Assembly (NCBI GenBank): GCA_905116865.2
Contig: CAJHNH020006645.1
Location: forward strand, 1-64,000
DNA: 64,000 nucleotides
Direction of reading: 5' to 3'
Source: Candidula unifasciata
Taxonomy: Eukaryota > Mollusca > Gastropoda > Stylommatophora > Geomitridae
Every line of letters begins with the position of its first letter. Within the stretch, counting starts at the first letter, position 1. This document shows, one piece after another, positions 4,527 through 55,000 of this stretch. Made by a program: the position numbers and the translations under genes. Below the pieces are notes generated by a model. The model was not told the DNA's origin. It saw only the letters and a program-made list of their open reading frames with translations, and made no database searches.

Positions 4527-7500
4527 CTGGATTGTAGAGGCAAAGAAGTTACTAGTTTTATTCAAAAACTACTCTGTTAATTAACATGTTAAAGAAATAT
4601 TGGTCAACTAAAGTCATACACAATCAACATCTACAAAATAATACTAATAATAATGTTCTTCTTCTCTGTTCACCCGCTGTAAGCTCCGACGGAAAGTTCT
4701 GGTTGTTCATCCAGCTGTAAGCTCCGACGGAAAGTTCTGATTGTTCATCCAGCTGTAAGCTCCGACGGAAAGTTCTGGTTGTTCATCCAGCTGTAAGCTC
4801 CGACGGAAAGTTCTGGTTGTTTATCCAGTTGCACACTGGCTTTGTGTCAGGGCCTGAGTTTTGTGGGCACAACCGTTTTATTGGTTTCTTTGGGTGCAGT
4901 TGGTTGTTCCTTGTCGCTTGGGCAGATGCACTGAAACTTCGAAGTAAGCTGGGTTATAATACTGATACTAAGAATCCATTAACGTGCTACTGGATGGCAA
5001 TGTAATTATCAACCGTGCTGGCCTGATATTTATTTTTACAAATAGAAATAAAAATGTCTTCAGCTCAATAATATTTATTTTCAATCTGGAAAAAAAATTT
5101 ACTGTCATCCAAAATTGTCATTAAGACCTGTATTTACCACATTTTAGGATGGCGTCGAGATAGTGAGACTGGGTGGTTAGGTAGGTGTGTGAGTATGGAT
5201 GTTTGTGTGTGTGTATGTGGGGGGGGGGGGGGGGGGGGAAAAGGGGGGGGAGGTAAGGCATATGAACCTGACTATTTAAGTCCAAATGGCTAGTACAGTC
5301 ACCATTAATTGCACAGGTTAGGTTTCTTATTTTTGCCGCCCCCAGTGAAAAAAAAAATTACCGTCACTTTACTTGAGGATTCAAATCCGGATTTCTGGAA
5401 AGAGAGTCCACTATTCTAACTGTTTAACCAGTGGCTCCTCTACTGAACTATCTACTTAACTCAAAAACTGTCTGTTTCCAACACTGGAAGCAGCACTTTT
5501 AACTATCTACTTACCTCAAAAACTGTCTGTTTCCAACACTGGAAGCAGCACTTCTAACTATCTAGTTACCTCAAAAACTGTCTGTTTCCAACACTGGAGG
5601 CAGCATTTCTAACGTATCTATCTAGTTCCCTCAAAAACTGTCTGTTTCCAACACAGGAAGCAGCCCCTCTAACTTAACTATCTACTTACCTCAAAAACTT
5701 TCTGTTTCCAACACTGGAAGCAGCATACAGCTCCACATTCATGCTGATACCCATCGACCGGAAGTTGTCCACACAGAACACAAGTTGAAAATATTGTTTC
5801 ACCTGAAAACAAAGATAAGTGCTTTCTTGATATCCTACCCCAAACAGGGGAAATCCACAGGTCACGGGACAGTCTAATATTTCTAGGGGTGCTAGATAGG
5901 CTGCATGCAGTTGTGGGACCTAGGCTGCATGCAGTCGTAGGAACGTAGGTGGGTTGGGGCCATTTATAGATGTTTTGGGGTCGTTAAAACATCAGAAAGC
6001 CTGGAAACCAAGTCTGACAAACCCTCTAAAATGTTGGACTGTCCTGTGTCGTCATCTGGGGTAGAATATTAAGAAAGAACCCAAAGATGTAAACCTTCAC
6101 TAACATGCATGTCTCTCTCTCTCTCTCTCTGTGTGTACGTGCGTGCGTGTTTTTTTTCTTTTCATGATCATCCTTAACAGGTGCATTGAAACTGGAAAAA
6201 GCAAAAATACCTCTCCACAACATGCAATCCCGAACATCATGTTCCGTTCGTGTTTTGACACCTTTACATGCTTCTTTCTTCTTCTTATTTTCTTTTCTCC
6301 TGGAATGCCTCGCGACAGTACGGCAGGAAAAGATCTATAGAACGGGCCTTGTGAGATCTTTTCATTTTCTATGAACACTAAGTAAGTCACTGTCAGTTTG
6401 CTGGACCAGTCACAGTGTTTTTCAAACTTCCTAGAAGGTCACACTTGAACTAGACTATCACATTTAAACATGTCCACTCTAGAATGTCTGAAACCTACCC
6501 GGTTAGATGCTGTCCGAAACATCCCCTTGCCTCGTTATCTTAAATGGAAGTCTATATGCATTGACAAAGTATTTACCAAAATTCTTTTATCTTCTAACCT
6601 TTTTCTAGTCTGTCTGGTCAACATAATATGTTCCAGTTTCTTTCTTCTTATAATATTTTGTGGCATGGTCATTAATTGTCCAGGATTCAAAGGCATATGT
6701 TAAAACTGGTTTTATTTTGTTTCCAAATCGGCAATGCCCATGTCTTACTAGGACAAAGAAGACAGAAGAGGAGAAGGAAGAGCAGGAAAAAGAACAAAAA
6801 CAAGAGGTAAATACTTCAAGAACAAGAAGTAAATTCTTTATGCCTGGTTTACTGTGGTAAAGGCAAGGTAAACAAATTTGAATACTCTAATTTAAAATAA
6901 TTTAACGGACACCTAAAACACTAATCGAAAATTCTGATCAGAATGGCTGGTTCTGCATCAGTTGGTGGTGAATTGATGTATGACAAGCTAGATGTTGGAA
7001 GGGCATTTTGGGGGCAAGTGAAGAGGGCGGAGGCAAAAATAGATCACCAAGGTCTGTGGAGAATCGCGCTGCAGGGAGTTACCCGGGGATCTGGCCGATG
7101 CTCAACAATCAAGGGAAAGGCGAGATGGATATACAATCAGACAGTTACTGGTGCCATCAGAATTGGAACTCTTCGCCTGCTGCTGATGTTGGGGATGGAG
7201 CGCTTGTCGGGGGGTGTCCCAAGTGCTGTGATGTCGATTCTGAACTCAACATTTAACATTCTGGTTCAGAATTTATAAATTCTTTCATACCAGAAAAACT
7301 CACAGATAAATGACCGACCAAGATGAATTGTTTCTTCTCCCTGTGTGGGTTCTGGAGGCCCTGTGTGGGTTCTGGAGGCCCTGTGTGGGTTCTGGAGGCC
7401 CTGTGTGGGGGCAGAAAAAGAACAGACCCACAACCACTCTAACAAGCATGGCATAAGAGCCCAATAATTAGGGGTTTCCTTCGAAGTAGGGGTGCATTTA

Positions 7501-16500: not shown

Positions 16501-19500
16501 AATTAAATTGGTTAAAATATAGTAAAACCTGGAAAGGATAAGTCATTGCATAAATCTGACAATATAATAAAAACACATTATTCACTAGTTCCCTTCTCCG
16601 TGTGTTTCTTGGACAGTCGCTGTTTCTTCAACATGTTGCGGTGCAAGGACAATCTAGTTTTACAGTTCTCAGCATGTGTCCTATCCAATGCCAGCATCTT
16701 TTCCTCATCTCTTGATTCACTGGAATTTGTATAGTTCTATCTCAAAGTTTAGGTGGTTCAATTTAATTCCCTCTATTCTGTGTAAAAATTAATGTATGCA
16801 GTTCTTTTTATCCTGCCTTCATCTCAAGAGGTAAATGTGTTGTGCCTGTTTACAACATGGCTTAGATATTTGCAACTTTTGGTTGACACATCTGACTTCT
16901 GCAGGAATGTGTTGCTTGGGTGAGCCTTCCCAGAGATTTATATAGTTTATTAGTAACTGTTTTAGTTGCTATCCATGTTTTGGATCCATAAACAGTACTG
17001 ACAAACACAGCAGAGCATTGCATACAAGATCTGTTCAACCATTATCTGGTCTGTATGTAGGGAAAATGAAATAACTCACATGGACTCAGAAAATATTTTA
17101 GGTCATGCAAGACATTATGCGCAGCATGACGGCAGAGCTGGGCTCCATTCTTAAAGAGGCCTTGCTGAAATACTTCAATGGCGGGGTATCTGGGTAAATG
17201 GTTTGCATTCCCAAAGAGTCTACTTGAAGGAGAATAGGGCTTAAGAACTCCAGAAAAATAACTTTTTCTTTCCCTGCTACAAACTGGTTACTTGTTCACC
17301 TTGTATATTCCAAATATTTTATGTCTCTTTTGTGTTCTTGGGGAGGTGTGGTTAAAATAGCGTCAAGGTGCTTGCCTGCTGGCGGGAAGGTCAAAAGTTC
17401 AAATCTGCACCGGGAAGATTTTAAACAGAAAAATTACCTTGGCTCCTAGGCCAACCTTGACTAAAATAGGTAACAGCTAATGTCCTGTGAAGCAAAGTCA
17501 GCCATAGTGTTTTTTACCACATCATCCCCTGAGTGCTGCTTGGTCTATTAAAATCATGAGTCTTAGACGAAACGCCATGTGAGGAACTGGCATAAAAAAA
17601 AGGTTCTTCACTTTTAAGTTTTGTGTTCTCAACAAGTCATTAACTAATGATTTCATTATACAAAGCATAACAGTCTAGTTGTGCTCTGTTTTCAAAAAAG
17701 CCTTTCTTGAATACTTCCAACAAAGGCAAAACAGCTCAGAGAAGTGTTTTCAGTTCTAAAGAGACTATTTTGAAAGGGATTACTGCATTTCAGATCTCTA
17801 GGTGAATAACTAGGTTTTTTTCTAATCATAAGGTCATAACTTTAGACCTTTAGATCCAAAATGCCTTACTGCCAAATAATGGTTATCTGGAGCAAATTTG
17901 GAACCCTCTATGAGCTGCTCATCCTTTGCACATTTGAAGACTTTCCTAATTATACTATAAGCATGATAATTTAACATGTGCTATGGAACAGATAAACTAT
18001 CGAACTATTGCCCTGATCAGTCATGCAAGTAAAATTCTACTAAAAATTATAATGAGAAGACTGCATAAGAAAACGGAAGAAGAGATTAATGTAGCTCAGG
18101 CTGGATTTAGACAGGGAAGAGGAACAAGAGATCATATATTCAACATGCGTTTAATAATAGAGAAGTGTAGAGAATTTAATGTAAATCTGTTCTTATGTTT
18201 TGTGGATTATTCAAAAGCATTTGACTGTGTACAACATCAAAAGCTTTGGGAAATCATGAGGAATATGGGCTTTCCATCACATATAGTGCAGCTCATTAAA
18301 ATGCTCTATCAAGACCAACAAGCAGCAGTCAGAATAGATGGAGAGACATCAGACTGGTTTGGCATCAAGCAAGGAGTCCGTCAGGGATGTGTGCTGTCAC
18401 CATATTTGTTCAACCTGTACGCCGAAAATATAATGAGAAATGTAAGAGATGATATAAACAAGGAACAATATGATGCCCTAAACATCGGTGGTCATGAAAT
18501 ACCAGAAATTCGTTATGCTGATGATACAGTATTACTATCAACATCACAAAATGGTTTAGAAAACTTATTAACCTCACTCCAAAGAAATAGTGAAAATCAT
18601 AACTTATTTCTTAACATAGCAAAAACAAAGATAATGCATACAAACAAAACTGCCATGGAGAAGGAAATATATGTTAATGAGGAAAGATTGGAAGTGGTGG
18701 AAAATTTCGAATATCTTGGGTCACTGGTTACCAACAATGGTGACACAGTGAAAGAAATTAAACGGCGACTATCAATTGCTCTTCAAAGACTAAAACAACT
18801 GAATAAATTATGGAATTGTACAGATAGAATTACAAAGGTCAGATTTTTAAGAGCATGCATCTTTCCCATTGCAACATACGCCTGTGAGACCTGGACACTT
18901 ACTAAACAAGCGGAACAGCGCATAAATGCATTTGAATATAAATGTTACAGACAAGTTCTAAGAATATCTTGGGTAAAGAAAAGAACAAATGCATCCATAC
19001 TTCAAGAGCTGAATATTGAAGAGGGTTGGCTAGTAAAGACAATAAAACAAAGAAAATTGAAATATTTTGGTCACTTGAAACGTCATGGAAGTCTCGAGAG
19101 AACAATAATGGAGGGGTATATGCCTGGGAAGAGAGGAAGAGGAAGGCCAAGGAGAAGATGGGTGCAGGATGTGGCAGATGATCTCCAGATGGGTGTATCA
19201 GACGCAGGACATCTTGCTCATGATAGGAAGGTTTTCCGGAGGGTTGTTATGGCAGCGAGGTTCCGCGAGGGACATGCTACTGAATGAATGAATGAATGGA
19301 ACAGATAAGTTCATAAAAAGATAAAGTTCCAACTTTAAACAGAAAAATGAAAATAGAAACAATAAAGTAGATAAATGCAGCAGAAATAACAAACAAAGAA
19401 GAACAAAGTCTATGTATAGAATTATAAAGTAGTAACACCATACTTTTAAACAAATGGTGATTCTCTGGTGAATGGGTGAATAAATCTGCCAACACAGGAA

Positions 19501-29800: not shown

Positions 29801-32800
29801 ACAGAGGAGCCGATGTATACAAATTACAATTTTACTGATCAGACAACCAACTTCTTCTTCTGTGCGTGCTCTCTTAAAACTGTGGTTGATAAGTTGTGGA
29901 TTACAGCATGGCCGAAACATCTGACTGTTATCCTGTCTGGGTGGGTCACAAGTGTAAAATTTTTTAAAAAGTTGAGAAATACTGCTCCAGCCACTATGCC
30001 ACTGCAGCTCCTAAAACTGAAAAAGAAGAAAAAAGACTGAATGCCTTGATCTGTCTCAAAGTTATCATGCTAATAAACAACCCTTTTCCCTAACTGTAGT
30101 TGCATTTAAGGCTGGGTAGATCTAGAAACCAAACCCAAAAACAAATTTGAACACATTCAGATCGTAGGTGAGCGACTATCTGCTACACGACATCTGTCCA
30201 ATGCTAATAAACAAAGATCTTTACTCACATTCTTCTCAGCTTCTTTGAAAAATGCAATGACATCTTTCAAAGCCTGGCCAAAAGTTTCGTAAACCTGTGC
30301 CTGCTCTCTCACCCAAGACGGCAGGGAATTTCTATTCTCAAATGATGAAAACCTGAAAAGATATCACAGTATCACACAGATTTATCAGGGTTAAAACAGA
30401 AAGAGTTAATGATCATGTATGTGTGTATAATAAAAATGTGTGTGCTTGTGTATAAATGTGTTTTTATTGTTGTGACCACCCAAGAAATGTTAATGTTGAA
30501 GTGTGTATGTATGTGTGTATAATAAAAATGTGTGTGCTTGTGTATAAATGTGTGTTTATTGTAGTGACCACCCAAGAAATGTTAATGTTGAAGTGCATGT
30601 AAGCAGGTTCCGTGTTTGTATGTGAATGTCTTCAAGTTTACTCGTGCCTGCACAAAACAGACAGACTTAACCCTTTCACCTCAGGAGCAGTAAAAATTTA
30701 AAAAAGTCATGACCGCATTAGAATCCCGGAAAAATATCTGTAAACAAAATAATAATGTTACATGTCACTAGTGAATTTGTTTTCCAAATAAATAGATATA
30801 TGCAAGCAGTAATCAATAAACACGAACAGTGTTAGGCCTTTAATAAAATACATCCTAGAAAAAGCAATATATCTGGTCACTCATACTGTGTCCCCGTGAC
30901 CTCTTACGGGAAACATCAACTGGGTTTTTAAGCTATTCTGCTCAAAGGAAAACTCCCTAAATGCTGTTGTTAGTTAATGCATTCATAAAATGATCTTAAA
31001 CATTTGCGCAGGTGCAACAACAGCCAACAGCATTAACTATCGGTCTCGTACACAGGTAACTATAAACAAGTAGGAAAAGTGACATTTATGCGGAACTGGA
31101 CCCAACTGGAAGTGTCCGTTTTCAGTTTCATGGGGAAAAACTGGTAAAACATAATCAATAATGCAGAACTCAGGGAAATAATAAAATATATTTTAGTGAA
31201 TCAAGTAGTGAGGAGAAGACATCTGCACTGGAGAGGAGAAGACATCTGCACTGGAGAGGAGAAGACATCTGCACTGGAGAGGAGAAGACATCTGCACTGG
31301 AGAGGAGAAGACATCTGCACTGGAGAGGAAAAGACATCTGTACTGGAGAGGAGAAGACATCTGTACTGGAGAGGAGAAGACATCTGCACTGGAGAGGAGA
31401 AGACATCTGTACTGGAGAGGAGAAGACATCTGCACTGGAGAGGAGAAGACATCTGTACTGGAGAGGAGAAGACATCTGTACTGGAGAGGAAAAGACATCT
31501 GCACTGGAGAGAAGACATCTGCACTGGAGAGGAGAAGACATCTGTACTGGAGAGGAGAAGACATCTGCACTGGAGAGGAGAAGACATCTGTACTGGAGAG
31601 GAGAAGACATCTGCACTGGAGAGGAGAAGACATCTGCACTGGAGAGGAGAAGTCATCTGTACTGGAGAGGAGAAGACATCTGTACTGGAGAAGAGAAGAC
31701 ATCTGCACTGGAGAGGAGAAGACATCTGTACTGGAGAGAAAAAACACAAAAGCATGGGTGGTGAAATGCATGCACACACACACACACCCATACACTCACA
31801 CACCCACATACCTTCACACACACATAATCACACCCCATTCATCCACATAGAAAGCTACATACCCACACAGACACGCACTCACTTAACACACCCACGTACC
31901 TTCACACGCACATAAACACACCCCATTCACCCACATACAAAGCCACATATCCACACACATTCCATACACATACAAACATACAGATATAAACACACAGACA
32001 CACCCATAGAAACAAATGCAGACACATACACACAAACAGACATACGCGCACATACCCAATCACACATGCAGATACACACAGCCATGCGACACACACACAA
32101 ACCTGCATACACACACGCAGACACACACAGACACATATGCACATATACACCCAGACTCAAACACACACACAATCGCAGACACACGCGCGCGCGCTGATGC
32201 TCACGCAGATACACACACACACACACACACACACACCCACACGCAGACATAAATATACAGTCACACACGCAGATAAAAATACACACACATGTTGACACAT
32301 CCAGAGACACTACACACAGAGACATACACAGATATATACACACAGACACGCATATACACAGGCAATTACCCAGATACACAAACACATACAGGCACATACA
32401 AAGACACACTCACAAACACAACAAAGACACACACATACAAACACACGCAGGCAAACACACAGCTGAGGAGAAGACATCTGTACTGGAGAGGAGAAGACAT
32501 CTGCACTGGAGAGGAGAAGACATCTGCACTGGAGAGGAGAAGACATCTGTACTGGAGAGGAGAAGACATCTGCACTGAAGAGGAGAAGACATCTGTACTG
32601 GAGAGAAGACATCTGTACTGGAGAGGAGAAGACATCTGTACTGGAGAGGAGAAGACATCTGTACTGGAGAGAAGAAGACATCTGTACTGGAGAGGAGAAG
32701 ACATCTGTACTGGAGAGGAGACATCTGTACTGGAGAGGAGAAGACATCTGTACTGGAGAGGAGAAGACATCTGTACTGGAGAGGAGAAGACATCTGTACT

Positions 32801-35800
32801 GGAGAGAAGACATCTGTACTGGAGAGAAGACATCTGTACTGGACAGGAAACATACAGGGGAAAATCTTACTATAATAACAATACAATAGGCATGAGGTGG
32901 TTGGGAGCACCTGCTCAAATAGAATCTGTATGAGCCTGTGGTATCTTCACGTTTTCATCATTTGAGAATAGAAATTGGCTGCCATCATTAGTGAGGGATC
33001 AGGCACAGGTTAACGAATCTTTTAGCAAGACTATGAAAGACGTCCTCGCATTTTTCAAGGAAGGTGAGAAGAGTGTGAGTAAAAAATATTTGTTTATAAG
33101 TAGGGCTGTACCGAATATTCGCTTCAGGGCTGAATAGTGGACCTATTGACTATTCAGTATTCGGCCGAATAGTTGCAGTCGAGCCGAATACAAATAGTAG
33201 TTACCTTACACCTGTTCTACATACACGGCCTTAATACTGACAACATGGAATGATTGGTTTTGTTGAAAGTTAATGCAGCTTTCATGCATTAACTAATCTG
33301 TCAGTGACAATTTACAAGTTTAGTTACTTGTTATAATACTTAGGATTTTTTCATTCCTAGTTATTAGTTACCACAGACTGACTGAAGGATGCAAAACATA
33401 AAATGTGTCTAAATGTTTACTATTCTGTACGAACACTAACTAGACATGACAAAAATGTAAACTCCGGCCACATTCAAGTCGATAATATGAAAATCAAACG
33501 AACGGAAACATAAAACTACTTGGGTGCAAATGTCAACTGCTCCAACAGGCTGAGAGAAGAAATACAATCTAGAATACAATCTAGAAATAAAGTATACTAT
33601 GCCCTTCAACGTCTGCTAAAGTCAAAGTGTCTGTCTCACAACACCAAGATCAAAATATATAAAACGTTGATAAGACAAGTCGTTTTAAATGGCTCTGAGA
33701 CTTGAAGCAGAAATAAAAAAGATGCAGCCTTATTACAGGTTTTTGAAAACAGTCTTACAACAAATCTTTGGGACCCATCTGTTGTGAGATGAGCAGCCAC
33801 CATACTCAGTGGACGAGTCGGGACTTGATTTCCCTCGCGCTCAGTAAAATTTAAAACTTAGACCCGTCCGGAAGGGTATATAGTCCCTTATATTGATCTA
33901 TACCTTTATCTGGTAAAATATTTATTTCTAGACCCTCCAGTTGCTTTGATAAATCTTCATTTTCAAACTTGCAACTGTAGGTTGGCAAATTCTGGTATTT
34001 TATTCAAAAATTCCTGTAAACCAGTTTACTCCTTGTTCATGAACACATGGGACTTTTTTTCTAAGCGTAGTTTGAAGCGGGCCTTTTCTGCCTGACTGCC
34101 TAGAAGAACAGATGTTCTAAACGGGGCCTATCTATGCTTTGAGGAGGCGGCCTTTGGTATCTAGGACATTTCCTAAGCTTGGGTAAGTTGATTAAGGTTG
34201 GCTACTGCTGCAGAGAAGGCAGAGTTAGCTATGTGATCGCACAGAGTTCGACCGTTCCTGATGTCCAGAGATTGGGCTCCGAACATTAAACCTTTCCCTG
34301 TGCAGACTAAATAGTTTGTGCTCTACATAACCCACACCATTTGTAAAGATATTAAACCCTACAAGTAATTATTCTATAACCAAACGTAGGATTTGTATCG
34401 ACTAATAGACACAGGTACAACTGGGTCATCTTTGGCCGGCTTGTTGCTGTGAAGCTGTCCTCAGTGTTCTAATGTGGAGTGTCTAGTGTGGGACTGTCTT
34501 GAACATAACAACAGAGTGACTGAACATCCGGCCAGTTCAAGAAACCAGGGATTCAGATAAGTGTGGTCAATCATGGGTTTATTGCCAGGCTTCACTATTA
34601 AATGTCCACACTGATCATAAGGATGAGATAGGCAGACTTTGGAACATTCATACACGTTCAGTCAATTCAAGATCGAGTTTGAAGTTTTGGTCCGTCTTAT
34701 CACTCTGGGTTCTTGAAGTTCTTTGCTGATTCTTATGTAATGTATGTGTTACACTTATTACAGTATTTCTAAAGTTTCACTATTGACTGGAGTGTCACTC
34801 ATTCATTGTTCTTAGCTGTCTAAAATACATGTATGTTCAATTAAATATTTTCATCTGTGTTAACATGGTTATGCTAGTAGACTATCATAACCTGGGGGGC
34901 TATCTTTTTATAGTAGTGGGGGTGTCCAGCCAAGTGTGCCTAGGAATATTATATATTTTGTAGTGCCAAAATTTGAGTTGCCCTACTCCTGAAATAAGTT
35001 GAGCGTATATTGGCCACGGGGCATCCCTTAGACCAATACGAGCCAACGACTCAACATAATTATTTCAGAGTGCTGTTGGTTCTTAAGGAGAATTCCTTAA
35101 ATCAGGCACGCGACAGGAGCGATATGTGACACCATCAAAGATGCTAACAGCGGGGAATGGAGAGTGAGAAGCAACAACGTAACACATAATCTGTTTAAAT
35201 CACCTTTGATCACTGACATCATGAGAGCTAACAGACTAAAATGGTTGGGGCATATTGAAAGAATGTCAGATGACAGAGAAGTAAAAACTGTATACACCTG
35301 AGAGAGGAATGGTCGTAGACCATGAGGCAGACACAAAAGAAGTTCGAGAGATAATGTCCAGCCAGACCTGCAAACAACTGGTGTCACAAATTGTAAAGAG
35401 AAGGCCAGCCAGAGAGATGAATGGAGACAAGTGATATCTGCAGCAGTAAACCTCAAGGGCTCAGAATGCTAAAGAAGAAGATTACTATTCTGTGCTACTA
35501 ATATTTTTAAAGATATATTTTATACACTATACACTTTTCGTATTCGTATTCGGCCGAATTGTTGGTCCCATTATTCATATTCGGCCGAATAGTAAAAATC
35601 ACTATTCGGTACAGCCCTACTTATAAGTATTGGCCAGACGCATGGTGTAGAAGAAGAAGAAGAAACAAGACATGATTCTGTATACCACAAAAGGTTAGTT
35701 AGTTGAGATTCTAACATCACTACAAATGGGTAGCCCCATAACTGCTCCATTCCAGACCTAGTGGAAACAAAACAAAATTCCTCTCACTGCCCCATTTGAA

Positions 35801-52000: not shown

Positions 52001-55000
52001 CGAAGAAAATTTTTTTGCAGCACTTAAGCTCAAGCCGGCGTAATGCTGACCACATTACCCACCTAGTGCCAATTGTTCTTTAAAAATATGGGAGCTCCTC
52101 CCGTATGCCCTACGCGCCTAAAGGCGTGAAAAGAGATCTTTACTACACTTTATACTTTACTGAAGCTCAAACAGTTCATCCAATACCTGAAAACAAACTT
52201 CTTGGTATAAATATTACAGACAGAAACAACAAGAAGCAAACAGCACTCCATAAGTCAGAAAAATCATACCTTTCCTTCCTTCATTATTTGCAGAAGTCGA
52301 CCAGGAATCAATTTTCTTTTTGTTATAACTTTCTGCTTGCTTCTTCTGTACGTGAACCTGAAAAGCATATTATCCAATGTTAGTTTCTTCATCTGTTTTT
52401 CATTTCCAAATGAAGCTTGGGCCTTCAAACAACTCACATCAAGCCATTTGAAAAACTGTTCATGAGTGGTTGGATTTTACAGCTAAGAAAAGTCTCCTTA
52501 CATTAACTCTCTCTCCCCTGGTGAGTTAGAAAGAAACAAAGCCAATGACCCATATTTTGGGAAGTCCTGGTTGGAAAACTTTTCAAAAACCATTTACACA
52601 GTTCATACAAAATCCTAACCAGTCAATTTACGGAACAAATCAATATTAATTTCTATAGAGAATAAGAGCAGCAATCAGTAAATACGAATGGAGCAGAAAA
52701 TTAACAGACTTACCTCTCTCGACCATAAACAAATTTTTAAGTGGCTCATATCCAGATTTCCTAACCCAGTCACCGAAGAACCACTAGCTGTCGTGCAAAA
52801 TTATGACATCAAAATTTCTAGTTAAAAAGCCATTTGTTTACAAGGAAGTACCGCCTCCTCAAATGCTATTTTTAAAAAATTAATCACTTCCAGTTCTCCT
52901 AACATCTGAGCAGGTGCAACTGATACCAGTGCTATAAGCTATGCTTCTCGTCCTCAAGTCACAATAGCAAGTCGGTAAAGTGACTTTAATGGGGTATTGG
53001 ACATAACTACAAGTGACAGATGGCATGACAGGGTTAATATTTATCTTAAAATGCTCAGATATTGTCTAAAAAATTTAAAATGCTCAGACAATAGTTTAAA
53101 TTCCTTAAAATGCTCAAACAATAGTCTGAATACCCTCAAAATGCTAAAACAATTCTCCTTACATTAAAATGCTCACACAGAAGTCTCCTTACCTTAAAAT
53201 GCTTACACACTCCATACCTAAAAATGCTCATACAAAAGTCTCCTTACCTTAAAATCCTAACAGTCTCCTTACCTTAAAATCCTAACAGTCTCCTTACCTT
53301 AAAATCCTAACAGTCTCCTTACCTTAAAATCCTAACAGTCTCCTTACCTTAAAATCCTAACAGTCTCCTTACCTTAAAATGATCATACAAAAGTCTCCTT
53401 ACCTTAAAATGATCATACAAAAGTCTCCTTACCTTAAAATGTTCATACAAAAGTCTCCTTACCTTAAAATGATCATACAAAAGTCTCCTTACCTTAAAAT
53501 GATCATACAAAAGTCTCCTTACCTTAAAATGTTCACAAAAAAGTCTCCTTACCTTAAAATGATCATACAAAAGTCTCCTTACCTTAAAATCCTAACAGTC
53601 TCCTTACCTTAAAATGTTCACAAAAAAGTCTCCTTACCTTAAAATGTTCACAAAAAAGTCTCCTTACCTTAAAATGATCATACAAAAGTCTCCTTACCTT
53701 AAAATCCTAACAGTCTCCTTACCTTAAAATGTTCACAAAAAAGTCTCCTTACCTTAAAATGATCATACAAAAGTCTCCTTACCTTAAAATCCTAACAGTC
53801 TCCTTACCTTAAAATGTTCACAAAAAAGTCTCCTTACCTCAAAATGCTCAGACAAAAGTCTCCTCAGCTAAAAATTCGCACAAAAGTTGTATAAAAAATG
53901 CTTCGGTAAATGCCTCATGACCTTGAGATGCTCAGATAAAAATATTTTCTCACCTTGAAACATCCAGACATAAATCATCATTAAAAAGCCCAGACAAATC
54001 TCCTTACCTTAAAATGCTCAGATAAAAGCTTTTGGTGAGTGGTCAGAGTTGTATATTCCTTTGGCTCTTGACTAAATACAATCTGCAACAAGTAATTGAT
54101 AATATTTGTTTAATGTTTCTTGTCTTTAAATCAGATCCTTATATAAGTTTAGACTTAAAGACAAGGGTAAGAATGCTGGCTCATATTCGCAAGACCAAAG
54201 TTATAATTCTAATTACCGTGGATTCTGGGCTTGCGAGGAAATGAGCGTAAACGGGAGCTAAAACAACTGGGTGAAGCCGCAGAAAGAGCTTCGAGCTAGC
54301 TGTGGACACAGTGGAATGTCGTGGGGGATAGGCCTCGGTAGAATGGTCAGGGGCCCCCAGCGGAAAATGTCTCTCTGCCAACTGCCAAAGTCTAACATCA
54401 GTCCAACGAACCAACCATTAACTTGTCACTCTGGTCTGTGCAGGTACGCGTCTAATATGCTACCGCAGCGACAATATATAACACCAACCCTCACAATACC
54501 TGTTGCAAAGCCACCATGCCGATCTTGTCCCTGTCAGTTAAACGCAGCAGGAGAAGTCTGTGGCCTGGCTTCATGACCCAGGTTGGCCAACCCTCCAAGA
54601 CTGTCTAGAAGATAATGGGCAGAAACAATTGTTGACGAGGGATCTTTCTACTGATAAACGTTGAACTCATGCTGTGTCTGCTCCAAGTGGAGTTCTTCTG
54701 ACATATGATTATTATCATCATCTTCTTCATGTACCCGAGCTGTAAACTTCAGTGAAAAGTTTATGGTTGTTCGTCCACTTCTACACTTTGGTCCCATTCC
54801 AAAACTTGAGTTCTCATTGCACAACATTTGACAGATCTGGCCAATTAGTGTGCAGACTATTGGTCTACAGGCAGATGCACTCCGACTTTAAAGGAAACAC
54901 CCCTAATTAGTTGCTGTTTATGACATGCTTGTTAGGGGGCGGTAGATCTTTTCTTATTTTCCCCAAAGTGGAGCCCTAGAACCCACCTGGGGAAGGGATA

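Follow-up and report, generated by a model that had tools for sequence, protein, structure and literature searches.

A minisatellite with multiple splice donors was reportedly described by Turri et al. in 1995 in the human gene 6-16 (G1P3, IFI6). In IFI6, two downstream minisatellite repeats are used as donors and three mRNA species are formed, according to the available part of one report (PMC4526556). Lancelets have "mirage" minisatellites at donors as well as at acceptors; their haplotypes differ in unit number, and splicing was regular by RT-PCR in the available sections of two papers (PMC3087553, PMC3902484). In molluscs, intron 3 of an abalone TSSK1-like gene contains a length-variable 27-bp minisatellite, as given in the accessible portion of the report (PMC6905558), and intron gain was discussed for gastropod haemocyanin in a paper whose available text does not mention mirages (PMC7931591). 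A literature search, with most subscription journals outside its coverage, found no published report of mirages in molluscs.

Here we analyzed a minisatellite at the end of an RTEL1 exon of Candidula unifasciata; the window is the whole stretch of 64,000 nucleotides under study. Like the lancelet mirages of Adh3, the globins BflGb6 and BflGb9, troponin C and PGBD5, the RTEL1 array has a unit which spans the exon-intron boundary, a real boundary among the copies, AG/GT in many but not all of the copies, and a concerted core with divergent edges, as far as the lancelet arrays are characterised in the available parts of their reports (PMC3087553, PMC3902484). It differs from them in its mollusc host and in its size of about 33 units of 30/25 bp, and in this mollusc several donors of one genome are affected and a rough frequency is given. 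Regular splicing is reported for the lancelet mirages in the same parts, whereas for RTEL1 it would follow from the gene model. In IFI6, as in RTEL1, the multiplied element is a working exon-end donor carried in a minisatellite, but the first decoy of RTEL1, i.e. the first downstream copy with a donor, lies beyond in-frame stops. The abalone array has the same mutational behaviour as the RTEL1 array; the RTEL1 unit, however, includes exon sequence and a splice site, and the abalone array is not so described in the available part of its report (PMC6905558). By its sequence features the RTEL1 array belongs to the known mirage class, and the novelty lies in the phylum and in the apparent frequency. 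The preliminary description had presented the array as singular, but several such arrays are present in the genome and the class was already named in the literature.

RTEL1 gene and its exon-end array

The gene model was obtained by tblastn with a human RTEL1 query which lacked the C-terminal zinc domain. The RTEL1 exons lie on the minus strand and extend from the helicase motifs to the harmonin-like domain region; two exons of the latter region, when joined, match Pfam HHD_RTEL1 (E=2.2e-12). The contig carries seven coding exons upstream of the window, of which the first begins MPLLEISGVQVNFPF near contig position 80412, and two further coding exons precede the array exon within the window. 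With at least nine coding exons before it, the array exon is thus at least the tenth, and its earlier label "exon 6" has to be given up. The end codons HFK and the frame had been read correctly (exon 54082-54008, intron from 54007, next exon from 52357); the exon has the 3′ end ...CTTTTATCTGAGCATTTTAAG and the intron starts with GTAAGGAGATTTG. HFK joins VHVQ of the exon 52357-52270 (VHVQ...WSTSA), and the counterpart junction in human RTEL1 is SYK joined to VHIH; this resemblance speaks for the donor next to the exon being the real one.

Some other features of the gene were observed. The RTEL1 exon FSSFENRN... has an inverted second copy about 2.5 kb off with 83% identity (32923-33100 on the plus strand, 30204-30382 on the minus strand), and related 23-bp minisatellites are found between the two copies at 31210-31738 and 32465-32848. 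A long open frame at 17950-19284 (plus strand) lies between RTEL1 exons and looks like a non-LTR retroelement reverse transcriptase.

The array is on the minus strand and its 30- and 25-bp units run unbroken from the last ~28 nt of the exon to ~53045. In an exact count over the whole window, the 18-mer ATTTTAAGGTAAGGAGAC was found 22 times and AAGGTAAGG 23 times, always on the minus and never on the plus strand; all copies of AAGGTAAGG lie inside 53030-54082, and one of them is the exon's own junction. TRF gave 53075-53875 with period 30 and 28.2 copies and alone stops short of the true junction, which is reached by wrap-around alignment to the 30-bp unit. In this alignment the exon tail 54035-54008 forms the start of the ladder and is followed by about five degenerate proximal units. 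The repeat unit straddles the junction 54008/54007 (...GAGCATTTTAAG/GTAAGGAGAC...), so that it spans the exon-intron boundary as in a mirage. The copy at the array edge is the true boundary, and the neighbouring exons of this protein-coding gene were mapped on both sides; the core units, of three nearly identical types, are homogenised while the edge units are divergent, which are further mirage properties. The place of the array, its intronic position downstream of the true donor and its nature as copies of a working exon end with donor, all proposed from the letters alone, were thus borne out by the 18-mer count, TRF and the alignment. The features are collected in Table 1.

Table 1. Position of the features of both exon-end arrays in the window
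Feature	Position	Strand	Basis or remark
RTEL1 coding exon	54008..54082	-	its terminal ~28 nt form repeat unit 1 (degenerate); aligns with human RTEL1
True 5′ splice site GTAAGG (AAG/GTAAGG)	54002..54007	-	7.4 bits, human donor matrix
Triple in-frame stop ahead of the first decoy	53975..53983	-	
Proximal degenerate units, one with a good donor (AAG/GTGAGA)	53838..54007	-	wrap-around alignment, donor scoring
Homogeneous core of 30-bp types (...TTTTGTATGATC..., ...TTTTTTGTGAAC...) and 25-bp type (...TGTTAGG...), with AAG/GTAAGG decoys	53218..53837	-	
Distal degenerate units	53045..53217	-	GAGCATTTTAA half mostly retained, donor half decayed in most
Following RTEL1 exon, acceptor TTTTCAG/GTT	52270..52357	-	
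Second mirage, 55-bp unit x 4.9	5446..5725	-	1/4 decoy donors intact
Exon with zinc-ligand pattern; its end is the first unit of the second mirage	5690..5802	-	true donor GAG/GTAAGT at 5689

The match between junction and unit was compared with background k-mers taken from both strands at every 7 nt, with the array excluded. The junction 36-mer 54031-53996 agrees with the unit at 31/36 positions against 24 for the best of 17,927 background 36-mers, and the match is therefore not due to chance. The exon tail alone (24 nt) agrees at 20/24, which was equalled by 1 of 17,931 background 24-mers. A stray unit at 52513-52478 is weak, as 3 of 17,927 background 36-mers are as good, and it is not claimed. 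No second near-identical copy of the array was found in the genome assembly of 1,344,651,174 bases in 7,176 contigs. A 45-copy, 27-bp minisatellite on another contig (L011 3549-4768, G000:C4440) shares GTAAGGAG and GTGTGAGC with the RTEL1 units at 66% identity over the array; it was rejected as an exon-linked relative, its upstream neighbour being a CA-type repeat, by which no link to an exon is shown.

In the second array of the window, the frame of the exon continues past the true donor with KVFEVSR and then a stop. The comparison of this exon with the Pfam RING finger gave E=0.021, below the cut-off, and by strand and order it is tentatively assigned to the C-terminal RING/zinc domain of RTEL1.

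Exon-end arrays in the genome

The exon screen comprised 153 exons, from 70 of 74 myosin-head, 48 of 49 chaperonin and 35 of 62 haemocyanin matches. Myosin and chaperonin were picked before any result was known, and haemocyanin was reused from an earlier search. The 62 matches of the haemocyanin beta-sandwich PF14830, a family typical of molluscan haemocyanin, lie mostly on two contigs, and 0 of 14 control genomes gave a match, although this panel is prokaryotic and thus a weak control. The family suggests a mollusc, and the assembly is also well above the size of lancelet genomes. In the automatic step a TRF array with a period of at least 8 had to cover 6 nt on either side of the assigned junction, and among the first 133 exons this was the case for 5 donors, out of 102 that had been assigned, and for 1 acceptor out of 126. 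In the wider screen of all 153 exons, arrays within -10 to +25 nt of the match end were listed, with 14 exons for the 3′ side and 9 for the 5′ side, and these were then read by eye.

Five of the 153 exons have clear donor mirages, namely the myosin exons L029, L050, L058 and L066 and the chaperonin exon L126, and the rate is 3.3% (95% interval 1.1-7.5%); the two window arrays are excluded from it because they prompted the search. L066 was not caught automatically, its weak donor being unassigned. L074 was flagged automatically, but it is ambiguous and was left uncounted, and in the eight other 3′-end candidates the array takes in no exon sequence, as it starts within the donor or past it. At the acceptor side there is one clear mirage among the 153, in the haemocyanin exon L156, where CTCTTTCAG is repeated. 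At this locus (G000:C5207:159450-160250) an acceptor-like CTCCTCTTTCAG ladder at the 3′ end of the intron runs into the true acceptor. The automatic acceptor flag at L060 concerns three copies of 11 bp and was not counted. In L048 (G000:C1027:74000-75200) and L083 (G000:C6997:168600-169800) the pyrimidine tract of the acceptor is like the last array unit; the remaining units are without AG and neither was counted as an acceptor mirage.

Tandem arrays (period at least 8) cover 16.1% of the sampled flanking bases, which are mostly intron, and 0.3% of the exon interiors of 133 exons. For the match edges of the 153 exons the values are 3.9% at the donor and 2.0% at the acceptor. As coverage drops from the flanks to the donor edge, donors are not preferred seeds of arrays, and donor-specific seeding was discarded. 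At 10 nt inside the match the values are 5/153 (3.3%) for donors against 1/153 (0.7%) for acceptors (p=0.21), and no edge comparison is significant. An earlier Fisher test of the asymmetry (p=0.09) and two sign tests (7:0 with p=0.016, 8:1 with p=0.039) predate the acceptor mirage L156; both window arrays, which had prompted the search, also entered the sign tests, and none of these results is relied on. Arrays seem to be tolerated at donors and perhaps more excluded from acceptors, a difference which is not significant in this sample.

Decoy donors and their possible use

The RTEL1 array is most likely a neutral mirage minisatellite, in which the boundary was duplicated in tandem, the exon-proximal donor is used and the decoys are tolerated. 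A segment spanning the exon end and the intron start would have been duplicated in tandem, after which the copies would expand, the middle would be homogenised by unequal exchange or replication slippage and the edges would decay. Judging from frame and homology, the spliceosome would use the exon-proximal donor and ignore the downstream copies; most simply, this donor would win because it is transcribed first and because exon definition couples it to the acceptor of the exon, and the decoys would be without function. Under such a first-donor rule additional downstream donors leave the mRNA unchanged, and thus the arrays would be tolerated.

Donors were scored with a human donor matrix, and a decoy was called good when its score was no more than 1 bit below that of the true donor. 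In RTEL1, 24 of the 32 decoys in the alignment are good by this measure and eight have a weak donor or none, so that the statement that each copy keeps AAG/GTAAGG is valid for the core but fails at the edges. The frame of the RTEL1 exon past the true donor reads VRRFVWAF and then meets stops at 53983, 53980 and 53977, i.e. 24 nt on, and the first decoy is at 53953 (+54 nt). As the in-frame stops precede the first decoy, any use of an RTEL1 decoy truncates the helicase. Isoforms of variable length, as suggested in the preliminary description and as in IFI6 with downstream copies in frame, are ruled out by these stops (TAA-TGA-TGA, 53983-53975); the 30-bp unit does preserve the frame, as had been said, but without effect, for the stops come first.

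The rival reading which survives best is that the decoys are partly used, so that RTEL1 is truncated after 8 codons and the array length sets the RTEL1 level through NMD. Against sole use of the first donor speaks that in model pre-mRNAs with a duplicated, identical donor the intron-proximal one can be preferred, which would predict mis-splicing at RTEL1. In favour of tuning, 22 decoys share the 9-mer of the true donor, and stops follow directly. The two downstream repeats which serve as donors in human IFI6, in the available part of the report, mean that decoys are not always silent (PMC4526556); the lancelet mirages, on the other hand, were spliced normally by RT-PCR in the part available of theirs (PMC3087553). 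We regard tuning by NMD as unlikely.

A regulatory ladder is still less likely. Here the intact donors would bind U1 and serve as a sink, prevent premature polyadenylation or enhance splicing at the first donor, and selection would keep the core homogeneous. The good decoys of RTEL1, all 10 of 10 in L050 and all 6 of 6 in L126 agree with it, but the numbers are only 0/9 in L029, 1/4 in the array 5446-5725 and 2/7 in L066, whose true donor itself has only -0.5 bits. The distal RTEL1 units have moreover lost the donor half and mostly keep the other half, and recent amplification alone predicts homogeneity. At the key donor positions of seven arrays pooled, 45 changes were counted against 38.3 expected (z 1.25), by which these positions are neither protected nor clearly targeted. 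Thus the earlier suggestions of a U1 sink or a splice enhancer gained no positive evidence, eight edge copies being weak or lost and good decoys being few or none in three other arrays. Selection to disarm the decoys was likewise not accepted: key donor positions are changed more often than expected in L029 (p=0.005) and L066 (p=2.5e-4), which suggests it, but the other five arrays (p 0.057 to 1) and the pooled test do not, and units within one array are not independent in these tests. Some ladders in the genome are intact and others are disarmed. Structural hiding of decoys was also discarded, as the predicted local pairing gives the true donor no advantage (predicted P(unpaired) 0.012 for the true RTEL1 donor, 0.002-0.114 for 23 decoys).

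Two further readings are very improbable. In pseudo-recursive splicing TTTTAAG/GTAAGG would be joint acceptor and donor and a chosen decoy would be removed in a second step, for which the T-rich stretch before AG/GT in core units speaks; AAG is a poor acceptor triplet, purines interrupt the tract and no normally spaced branch point was seen by eye. An assembly artefact, with repeat number inflated or the array misplaced, has a precedent in lancelet BflGb6, apparently misassembled in the draft genome according to the available part of the report (PMC3087553), but the edges of the RTEL1 array are diverged, its unit types are interleaved and the same design occurs independently in several contigs.

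The other ladders differ in what decoy use would cause. L058 (G000:C995:215300-216500) has a first donor GTTAGT of 4.5 bits, and 11 of its 18 decoys are stronger, up to 8.5 bits; on these scores position would prevail over strength. Its first decoy is in frame at +30 nt with no stop before it, so this stronger decoy could be the real exon end, the exon perhaps having gained one unit. The first decoy of L050 and of L029 lies at +44 nt and is out of frame, and later decoys meet a stop at +45. The chaperonin mirage L126 (G000:C2033:167100-168000, minus strand) has a 45-bp unit and an open frame. Use of a downstream donor in L126 would insert 15-residue repeats (VNSTVYVVLFVDTVQ) and not truncate the protein.

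Direction of origin and significance of the arrays

The direction of origin is best seen in the myosin exons. The repeat unit of L029 derives from the exon end DEESKFPK, a conserved myosin motif, and in L050, with the exon end LLDDECK, GTGCAAGGTAAG is present 11 times, counting the true copy. The paralogous exon L048 (LLDEECK and donor) has 0 unit copies and is identical to L050 at 49 of 60 nt across the junction. The conserved motif of L029 and the array-free paralogue of L050 argue that the exon came first in both, in agreement with the earlier proposal that the copies arose at the exon edge by slippage-type tandem duplication. In RTEL1 the loop before HFK differs from human, and in this gene alone an older intronic array may have overwritten the exon tail instead of arising there.

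Boundary duplications are present at about 3% of the sampled exon ends, and the mirages are most likely a by-product of minisatellite turnover, 16% of the sampled flanks being arrays. It is quite possible, though a little short of an even chance, that mirages occur throughout the genome of this mollusc at ~1-8% of 5′ splice sites, which in the case of a representative sample would mean thousands of introns, with donors chosen by position among equal or stronger ones, and that they supply raw material for exon growth, e.g. in the in-frame ladder of L126. With the present data mirages extend beyond lancelets into molluscs and have a first rough frequency, which bears on models where duplications make new introns or lengthen exons. 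The choice of a 5′ splice site among near-identical candidates is usually studied with constructs. The ladders of identical or stronger decoys make the rule that the first donor wins testable by ordinary RNA-seq, in many genes together.
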